From Gammaproteobacteria bacterium (GTDB lineage: Bacteria > Pseudomonadota > Gammaproteobacteria > S012-40), in contig CAKKRP010000067.1 in assembly GCA_919902765.1 (NCBI GenBank), positions 1 to 33,410 of the forward strand: a DNA stretch of 33,410 nt. The letters run 5' to 3'. Shown piece after piece: positions 3 through 2,521 of this stretch. Position numbers and translations under genes: made by a program. Within the stretch, counting starts at the first letter, position 1. Each line of letters opens with the position of its first letter. Under the pieces are notes generated by a model. That model ran no database searches and had not been told where the DNA came from. It worked only from the letters and a program-made list of their open reading frames with translations.

Positions 3-431
3 GCACCGGTCGACAATGGGATGCGCATCGTACCGGAGGCGCGAGTGCCGAAGATCACAATAAAAAATCGCGGGCCGTCCACAACGGCGGACAAGGCAAA
101 AAACTTTGTACCGGTATTTGCCAGGGAAATTCCAGCACCAACAAAAGATGATCCGAAGCTACGGCAGTGGATGCGCAAGGGGGATATCATCAATTCCAAT
201 AATCATGTGGTCATTGTGCTGGAGCCGCAGCTTGGAAAAACACCGTTTACTAAGCGGCAATTTAGGGTTGTGAATGCCTGGGGCGAGAATTTTAAAATTA
301 ACGATAAAGGCAAAAAGAACGACGAGCCTACCGAGCTGTTAAGAAGGTGTCGAGTGATGGACTTTTATGAATGGGGCGTGGGTATTGGCGTCGGTGCCAA
401 ACTTGGAAAACCCTATATTTGGAGAACCTGA
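3..431 (+). CDS. 5'-truncated protein, possible NlpC/P60- or CHAP-like peptidase C-terminus
   Basis: The frame is open from base 3, so the gene very probably starts outside the window; the first in-frame ATG at 21 is unlikely to be the real start. About 142 codons are visible. I do not recognise the family firmly. The segment GDIINSNNHVVIVLE followed by a short loop and VVNAWGENF resembles the His-containing beta hairpin of NlpC/P60 or CHAP cysteine peptidases, where a Gly-Asp turn precedes the catalytic His. The Cys-bearing half would lie upstream, out of view, so this cannot be confirmed. The C-terminus is basic and aromatic (KLGKPYIWRT). The stop codon TGA overlaps the ATG of the next gene by one base, so the two are coupled. 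By inference it is a wall-active enzyme; the call is tentative. Confidence 0.5.
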   Translation, partial: APVDNGMRIVPEARVPKITIKNRGPSTTADKAKNFVPVFAREIPAPTKDDPKLRQWMRKGDIINSNNHVVIVLEPQLGKTPFTKRQFRVVNAWGENFKINDKGKKNDEPTELLRRCRVMDFYEWGVGIGVGAKLGKPYIWRT

Positions 432-1615
432 TGACCTTGCTTAGCCTTAATAAATTTGCAATGCTATTGACACTACCGTTCACGCTTGGCACCCTTTTCG
501 AGACAAATGCTATGGCAGAAGAAACACTTTATCTACCTGCGAAGAAAATATTTTCAATTTCGTATAACAATATTCAGTTAGTCGATGCTGATAAATTTGA
601 CAATATGGCGTTCTTGTACGAACGCGCTATTGTGCTAGATCATCCTTCTGGCGTGTGGATTGGGGGGAAATCGGTTGAGAATAAGCGCTACCTCATACGT
701 CGGTTCGATCTCACCGGTGCCAAACCGCAAGACTTCGATATAGCGACAACATTCAAGCAGGAACCCTCATACATCCGAAGCATGTCGTCGCGGCACCTTG
801 AAAATGGTAACGCACTTAACATTTTAGTCACCACCAAAGATACAGATGGTGTCGTCAGGCGCGCAAATTACTTTGTTGATAAGGCGAATTTGAGTATCCT
901 ATGGCAGGGTAATTACGACGAACTCTACGGTCTTTTTGTATTTAACAACGGAAACGTTTTATATGATGTCCAAGAAAAAATCCTATACAACGCAGACAAA
1001 AGCAAAGAGATTGGGAAAATACCCGACAAGCTATTTTTACAAAAGGCCGATGGGAAAACACAAACGCCGGTTGGCATCCCTGAATATACGCCAAACTTTG
1101 TAAAACTAAAAAACCACGTCATCTTCGATCTTAGCGACTATGTGCAAATCGTGGATGAAACCGGACAGGTAAAAAATATCCCTGGAAAGATGATCGCAGG
1201 TGGTTCGCCTTCGCTTTCCGATGTCGCTACCAGCCATGGCAATTACTTTTGCACGATGCCGTCAAATAAGGCCAAAGAAGCCACCAAACATGATGGTAAA
1301 CGCACCACCGTAACGCGCCCCCGCTCGCTCAACATGTACTATTATGACGAGGCTGCGGGAAAAATCTACAACCTCGGCGACACCAGTGCCATTGCGCCTT
1401 ACATCAAAATCTCTGAAGGCGAGAACGATATCGACGAAACGCGTTATCAAGGCGATGTCGCTGTGGTCACCGAAACCGGCGACTATTACGAAGTCCAATG
1501 GGACAAAGTCGGCATCAACGTCTACCACTCAGTCGCCAATCAATCCGTGTTGAAAAAGCGCATGGAACAGGCGATCAGCGACGACAAGAATTTTGTGCAT
1601 TTGCAAAAGAAATGA
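431..1615 (+). CDS. secreted protein of unknown function
   Basis: The protein has 394 residues. The ORF track starts at 371, but the ATG at 431 is better: GGAGA lies a few bases upstream, it overlaps the previous stop (TGATG), and the protein then opens with a Sec-type signal peptide (hydrophobic AMLLTLPFTLGTLF, plausible cleavage after NAMA near residue 29). The mature part has repeated aromatic and Gly-containing strands with polar turns (for example VWIGGKSVENKRYLIRRFDL), suggesting an all-beta, perhaps propeller-like fold; this is an impression, not a family match. Base composition is more A/T-rich than in the core genes to the right. Coupling to the upstream possible peptidase suggests a functional pair, such as enzyme and periplasmic inhibitor or immunity protein, but nothing in the sequence proves it. 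Confidence 0.65.
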   Translation: MTLLSLNKFAMLLTLPFTLGTLFETNAMAEETLYLPAKKIFSISYNNIQLVDADKFDNMAFLYERAIVLDHPSGVWIGGKSVENKRYLIRRFDLTGAKPQDFDIATTFKQEPSYIRSMSSRHLENGNALNILVTTKDTDGVVRRANYFVDKANLSILWQGNYDELYGLFVFNNGNVLYDVQEKILYNADKSKEIGKIPDKLFLQKADGKTQTPVGIPEYTPNFVKLKNHVIFDLSDYVQIVDETGQVKNIPGKMIAGGSPSLSDVATSHGNYFCTMPSNKAKEATKHDGKRTTVTRPRSLNMYYYDEAAGKIYNLGDTSAIAPYIKISEGENDIDETRYQGDVAVVTETGDYYEVQWDKVGINVYHSVANQSVLKKRMEQAISDDKNFVHLQKK

Positions 1616-1912: not shown

Positions 1913-2203
1913 ATGGTTCAAATTCGCAAAACCGAGGTCTATGCCCAGTGGTTGGATAACTTACGCGATTTCCGTGCGAGAGCACGCGTGCTGGCCAGGG
2001 TCGAACGGCTGGCCAACGGGAATCCAGGCGATGTGAGGCCTGTGGGCGAGGGCGTATCCGAAATGCGAATTGACTATGGTCCCGGATATCGGGTGTATTT
2101 CAAGAAACAAGGGCGAGAGGTCGTCATTCTTCTGGCGGGCGGCGACAAGCAAAGCCAGGCCGACGACATCAAAAACGCCTTGCGCCTAGCGCGCAATTTG
2201 TAG
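1913..2203 (+). CDS. RelE/ParE-superfamily (HigB-like) toxin
   Basis: The 96-residue protein matches the short addiction-module killer family within the RelE/ParE superfamily, whose members are usually mRNA interferases acting at the ribosome. Visible family features are the basic N-terminal helix region (WLDNLRDFRARARVLARVERLANGN), the central GVSEMRIDYGPGYRVYFKK strand pair, and the C-terminal VVILLAGGDKQSQADDI with its conserved GGDK turn. Length is typical. The antitoxin gene follows 6-9 bases downstream in the toxin-first order of higBA modules. The ATG lacks a Shine-Dalgarno sequence and lies at the predicted transcription start. The fold assignment is secure; the exact subfamily and cutting specificity are not visible. 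Confidence 0.88.
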   Translation: MVQIRKTEVYAQWLDNLRDFRARARVLARVERLANGNPGDVRPVGEGVSEMRIDYGPGYRVYFKKQGREVVILLAGGDKQSQADDIKNALRLARNL

Positions 2204-2209
2204 GAGCAC

Positions 2210-2521
2210 ATGATGGCCAAGACCCACACCACACGTTACGACGTTACCGAACATCTGCGCACGCCGGAAGAAATGGCCGCTTATCTAGAGGCCTGCCTAG
2301 AGGAAGCCAATGGCGACGCCGCTTTTATCGCTAAGGCCTTGGGTGACATCGCGCGTGCCAAAGGTATGACCCAAGTGGCACGCGACGCTGGTTTGTCCCG
2401 TGAAAGCCTTTACAAAGCCCTGTCTGGCGACCGCAGCCCCGACTTCGACACCATACTCAAAGTGGTCGCGGCCCTGGGCATCAAATGGCGTTTTACAATC
2501 GATCTACCACCCGCTGCTTAA
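2210..2521 (+). CDS. HigA-like addiction-module antitoxin (HTH)
   Basis: A 103-residue antitoxin of the family that pairs with short RelE-type killers. The N-terminal part (TRYDVTEHLRTPEEMAAYLEACLEE) would wrap the toxin. The C-terminal half is a Cro/C1-like helix-turn-helix (MTQVARDAGLSRESLYKALSG followed by PDFDTILKVVAALGI) that should bind the operon operator. Two ATGs are adjacent (2210 and 2213); AGGAG at 2202-2206 is better spaced for the second (6 bases against 3), so the true protein may be one residue shorter. The toxin stop lies inside the Shine-Dalgarno region, implying coupled translation. Autorepression through the palindrome at the toxin start codon is an inference. Confidence 0.88.
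   Translation: MMAKTHTTRYDVTEHLRTPEEMAAYLEACLEEANGDAAFIAKALGDIARAKGMTQVARDAGLSRESLYKALSGDRSPDFDTILKVVAALGIKWRFTIDLPPAA

Follow-up and report, generated by a model that had tools for sequence, protein, structure and literature searches.

Does the left end of this contig encode a peptidoglycan-hydrolase effector together with the periplasmic immunity protein that guards its owner? The window that we analyzed spans bases 1 to 33,410 of contig C67 (45,378 bases), which belongs to a 3.3-Mb draft genome of 157 contigs. It opens inside a gene, ORF A, whose 3' part (142 codons and a stop; positions 3 to 431, plus strand) is followed on the same strand by ORF B (431 to 1615), which encodes an exported protein of 394 amino acids. 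The assembly cuts ORF A short, as an earlier note on this DNA had proposed: the frame is open from base 3, and base 1 of the window is base 1 of the contig. By codon usage both frames score as coding, ORF A at -0.05 bits per codon (at most -0.39 in the other five frames) and ORF B at +0.06 (at most -0.40 in the other five). The TGA of ORF A (429 to 431) and the ATG of ORF B (431 to 433) have one base in common (TGATG), and a Shine-Dalgarno-like GGAGA lies ahead of ORF B at 421 to 425 (plus strand), so that the one-base overlap described earlier was confirmed. Tight coupling of two genes, with a ribosome site ahead of the second, is one of the features by which effector-immunity pairs are recognized.

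A second such feature is a signal peptide on the partner of an effector that acts in the periplasm. The product of ORF B begins with a Sec-type signal peptide, MTLLSLNKFAMLLTLPFTLGTLFETNAMA^EE, where the hydrophobicity of the protein is greatest, with cleavage predicted after AMA (431 to 517, plus strand; from sequence reading and hydropathy). This bore out the earlier call of a signal peptide, and the accompanying statement that the protein cannot be assigned to a known family also held, as ORF B gave only chance-level matches in the libraries searched. Its sequence contains no internal repeats above those of shuffles. A single-sequence AlphaFold model of ORF B reached a pLDDT of 36 and was composed mostly of strands. 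When this model was submitted to Foldseek, the top entries were mostly beta-propellers, none of them significant (E of at least 2.4e-3, TM about 0.15), and a low-confidence all-beta model may draw propellers regardless.

The fragment of ORF A carries the motif GDIINSNNHVVIV (180 to 218, plus strand), in which the candidate catalytic His is fragment residue 68 (204 to 206), and then FRVVNAWG, a second predicted strand that ends in Asn. We take these two elements to be the His hairpin and the next strand of papain-like wall hydrolases. They are like NlpC/P60 (PF00877) and CHAP (PF05257) proteins in having a putative GD[IV]x...HVxIV hairpin and then a predicted strand ending in Asn, and unlike them in that neither profile detected A in a search of the entire genome that admitted matches up to E=10. 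The GDIINSNNHVVIV pattern occurred once among 300 ORFs of at least 100 amino acids in the sequence examined and in none of 20,000 shuffled versions of A, counts that speak to rarity rather than function because the pattern was composed after the motif was seen. ORF A had no match among PDB sequences, nor in Pfam, NCBIfam, PHROGs or PADLOC, a weak test with about half of the domain missing.

Two checks that the earlier note had suggested gave little. Extension to the left, which might have supplied the Cys-bearing half or a VgrG, PAAR or MIX domain, ended with the contig: no other contig of the assembly overlaps the left end of C67, and the 5' half of ORF A is absent. Structure prediction produced no usable model, the one for ORF A (mean pLDDT 32) being as uninformative as that for ORF B. 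The remaining 142 residues of A hold no Cys N-terminal to His68, no type VI secretion (T6SS) delivery domain is visible in the fragment, whose 5' part is missing, and none of the window ORFs that we read is a T6SS gene. What stands of the proposed NlpC/P60- or CHAP-like His hairpin is the motif, present once, and not the family, which no profile supports; all of the direct evidence that A may be a papain-like hydrolase lies in that motif. The peptidase assignment is unproved, half a domain being too little to decide it.

The explanation that we favor, and to which we give an even chance, is that A represents the C-terminal portion of an antibacterial T6SS effector, a peptidoglycan hydrolase of papain-like (NlpC/P60 or CHAP) type, and that B is its periplasmic immunity protein. 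The absent 5' half of A would supply the catalytic Cys, His68 would be catalytic, and Asn91 (273 to 275, plus strand) would be the likely third, polar residue. The T6SS would inject A into the periplasm of competing cells, where A would cut peptidoglycan through its Cys-His papain-like site. B would be translated from the message of A through the TGATG overlap and exported by Sec to the owner's periplasm, where it would bind the hydrolase and block the active site, protecting the cell against the shots of its siblings. The fold of A, its enzyme activity, its delivery and its binding by B are what we infer; the interpretation as a whole is plausible, and it is better backed by the genome than the window alone could show.

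The genome carries T6SS genes. Genes for TssJ, TssK, TssL, TssM, TssA, TssB and TssC are found on contig C144, and genes for VgrG, PAAR and DcrB on contig C129, where a gene with a metallophosphoesterase domain comes next. A PAAR search of the genome returned matches only on C129 and C105. By our reading, the genome has, in addition to the T6SS genes, a phage-tail-like cluster of the extracellular contractile injection type on C105 (L020), including genes for tube, hub, PAAR and baseplate.

Likely wall-directed effectors of the T6SS are encoded in an island on a further contig, C143 (C143:14602-19833; L015:2602-7833). One is a protein with a Tlde1 domain (PF10908, E=3.3e-9, over the Pfam cut-off); a membrane protein gene lies downstream of it. 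Another, of 899 amino acids, has a weak C-terminal match to GH46 (E=8e-4, below the cut-off) and an N-terminal part that reads like an M23 peptidase, and the end of its gene is overlapped by the start of a gene for an exported protein. These two genes are a second likely pair of wall hydrolase and partner in this genome. Interleaved with the effector island are genes for two long lipoprotein-like repeat proteins, 35% identical to each other (L015:3-2582 and L015:7838-11080). No T6SS structural gene was found among the ORFs read on C143.

The same contig also holds what is left of a paralogue of A. An 83-base piece on the minus strand at C143:8228-8309 is 82% identical to window positions 273 to 355 (E=6e-15), and thus spans the 3' part of the gene from Asn91 to past Cys116 (348 to 350, plus strand), which is kept. 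The piece is a frameshifted remnant, with NAYGENFQITDKGGK in one frame and KKPNELLRRCRV in another, and it begins directly after the stop of a gene for an exported protein. Ahead of that gene is a 63-codon piece like the C-terminus of Tlde1 (weak, E=0.09), which looks internally deleted. In a model developed for Vibrio cholerae, a newly arriving effector-immunity module takes the place of a previous effector, whose 3' end stays behind (PMC5361080), and a remnant directly 3' of an exported-protein gene is the trace that such a displacement would be expected to leave. C143 is like the T6SS immunity arrays of that species (PMC5361080) in that an exported, immunity-type gene is followed at once by the 3' end of an older effector. 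It differs from them in that no B-like immunity gene follows the remnant and the contig ORFs that we read include no T6SS structural gene. That an A-like remnant lies with likely wall-directed effectors offers the best independent indication that A belongs to this group. The earlier idea of an effector and its immunity protein thus gained the backing of the T6SS genes, of the C143 island with its Tlde1 protein and likely pair, and of the remnant, and it did so without profile support for the peptidase part.

The C143 island also bears on the alternative that the two genes are an effector-immunity pair in which A is a toxin of another type, or travels by another route, such as extracellular contractile injection or on a polymorphic carrier of the Rhs type; the His motif would then be fortuitous. 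The lack of any profile match to A would suit such a toxin, as the phage-tail-like injection genes on C105 would suit such a route. That the partner is exported suggests a target in the periplasm, however, and the remaining likely effectors of the island are wall-directed, and we consider this alternative unlikely.

Relatives of the two genes are few. ORF A had none among the genomes searched from its order (13), class (369) and phylum (399). Scans of about 85,000 genomes and of IMG/VR for sequence patterns were negative, as was a tblastn search of phages and plasmids. A match in the genome G214 was set aside, as it has an internal stop and the long ORFs of that region read as unrelated genes. 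Eight other genomes matched A at E of 0.01 to 0.05, which is no more than chance over 399 genomes; on close inspection of the matches in L040 and L033, one proved antisense to a metabolic gene and the other internal to an unrelated lipoprotein gene. For ORF B the same searches yielded one relative, a 49-residue piece at a contig start in G001, a genome of the same genus, that is 84% identical to its C-terminal 49 amino acids. Across these 49 codons, position 1 shows 5 changes, position 2 shows 4 and position 3 shows 13, and this excess at third positions is the pattern expected of a protein under selection.

The G001 piece adjoins a GGDEF/EAL gene rather than gph. From position 2582 on, the window has a 75% match in the gph region of G001, and neither the A/B pair nor the toxin-antitoxin genes that follow it in the window adjoin gph there. 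With the B piece and gph apart in G001, the pair would occupy different sites in two related genomes, a comparison made between contigs that are broken in both. Base composition also sets the pair apart. The GC content is 49% in ORF A, 45% in ORF B and about 46% for the two together, against 53.6% for the remaining sequence (standard deviation 2.4% in 1.6-kb windows). The toxin-antitoxin pair is itself 57% GC, so the odd composition that the earlier note ascribed to the region applies to A and B and does not extend to that pair. The proposal that the region was acquired is partly upheld, by this difference in GC and by the pair not lying beside gph in a genome of the same genus. A and B are near-orphans of atypical GC, as would suit an accessory pair with rapid turnover.

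This distribution is at odds with the possibility that the locus is no weapon and that A is a house enzyme, a periplasmic or secreted amidase or peptidase that its exported partner activates, anchors or regulates. Operons that join an enzyme-like protein to an exported partner are, as is generally known, also common for ordinary cell-wall enzymes, and the layout alone would suit one. Yet ORF A is absent from all 12 other genomes of the order and B occurs in only one, as a C-terminal piece, and the displaced, decayed tail of A on C143 sits in an effector island. We regard a house enzyme as rather improbable.

Comparison with characterized systems returns us to the favored reading, that of a papain-like T6SS effector with its immunity protein. 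Coupled genes with the exported partner downstream are the layout of Tae/Tai pairs (PMC3695027), and delivery, wall cutting and blocking by the immunity protein are established for Tae4/Tai4 and Tse1/Tsi1 (PMC3695027, PMC3391265). For A and B the analysis shows the layout, the signal peptide, the motif and the genomic surroundings. Tse1 is an NlpC/P60 effector, and its immunity protein, Tsi1, forms a partial beta-propeller (PMC3391265); the model of B is mostly beta at very low confidence, with nonsignificant propeller matches. The A/B pair is like Tse1/Tsi1 (Tae1/Tai1) and other Tae/Tai pairs in its two-gene layout, its exported partner and a putative His hairpin of papain-like type. It differs from them in that no sequence or profile similarity of A or B to Tae/Tai proteins was found, and in that neither a catalytic Cys nor a delivery part is seen in A, the 5' half being absent. 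Known Tai proteins are also much smaller than the 394 amino acids of B. The arrangement of the A/B pair is well known, and both of its sequences are new.

A different set of relatives comes into question if the core of A is permuted. A would then be a lipid-attacking effector of the permuted NlpC/P60 kind (YiiX/TseH/Tox-Act1-like), with His68 first and Cys116 as the nucleophile, the core perhaps complete in the fragment and B again the immunity protein. His does precede Cys in the fragment, the C143 remnant retains Cys116, and T6SS effectors of the NlpC/P60 type with this order exist, namely Tox-Act1 (H43/C151) and TseH (PMC12994826). A is unlike these two in its short spacing, however, with 48 residues between His and Cys against 108 in Tox-Act1, and it has no match to their family or to anything else in Pfam; the RVMDFYEW after Cys116 also seems to us unlike the helix start that usually bears a permuted nucleophile. 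These differences make a permuted core quite improbable. A further alternative is that the effector gene is dead and survives in the window as a 3' end beside a retained, orphan immunity gene. This would agree with the displaced, frameshifted 3' end on C143 and with a contig that begins within A, but it is very improbable given that A keeps an open frame through 142 codons and that its codon usage is coding-like.

A broader claim would be that A and B represent a new family of papain-like cell-wall effectors with a large, complete beta-propeller as immunity protein, confined to a single genus of uncultured Gammaproteobacteria in which it has spread to more than one chromosomal site, displacement leaving effector tails behind. 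We put this forward as doubtful. The favored reading, if true, would add an unrecognized family to the T6SS cell-wall toxins of an uncultured gammaproteobacterial group, and it would suggest that the Vibrio-type displacement that builds immunity arrays leaves effector tails in other lineages too. The A/B pair leaves the general understanding of such systems unchanged.

The neighboring toxin-antitoxin pair (1913 to 2521), which lies outside the A/B pair, proved to be real. Its first gene (1913 to 2203, plus strand) encodes a RelE/ParE-type, Gp49-like toxin of the HI1419 family (TIGR02683, 133.9 bits, E=1.9e-39; PF05973), and its second (2210 to 2521, plus strand) the cognate helix-turn-helix antitoxin of the HI1420 family (TIGR02684, 120.9 bits, E=1.9e-35; PF21716). 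Both TIGR matches are over the cut-off, and by these profiles the pair is an ordinary one of the HI1419/HI1420 type. Directly 3' of ORF B, at 1620 to 1668, is a REP-like palindromic intergenic repeat, GGGTGGAT-AAGCGCAGCGC-ATCCACCC (in general form GGGTGGAT-N11-ATCCACCC), which recurs at two further sites in the genome and at several in G001.
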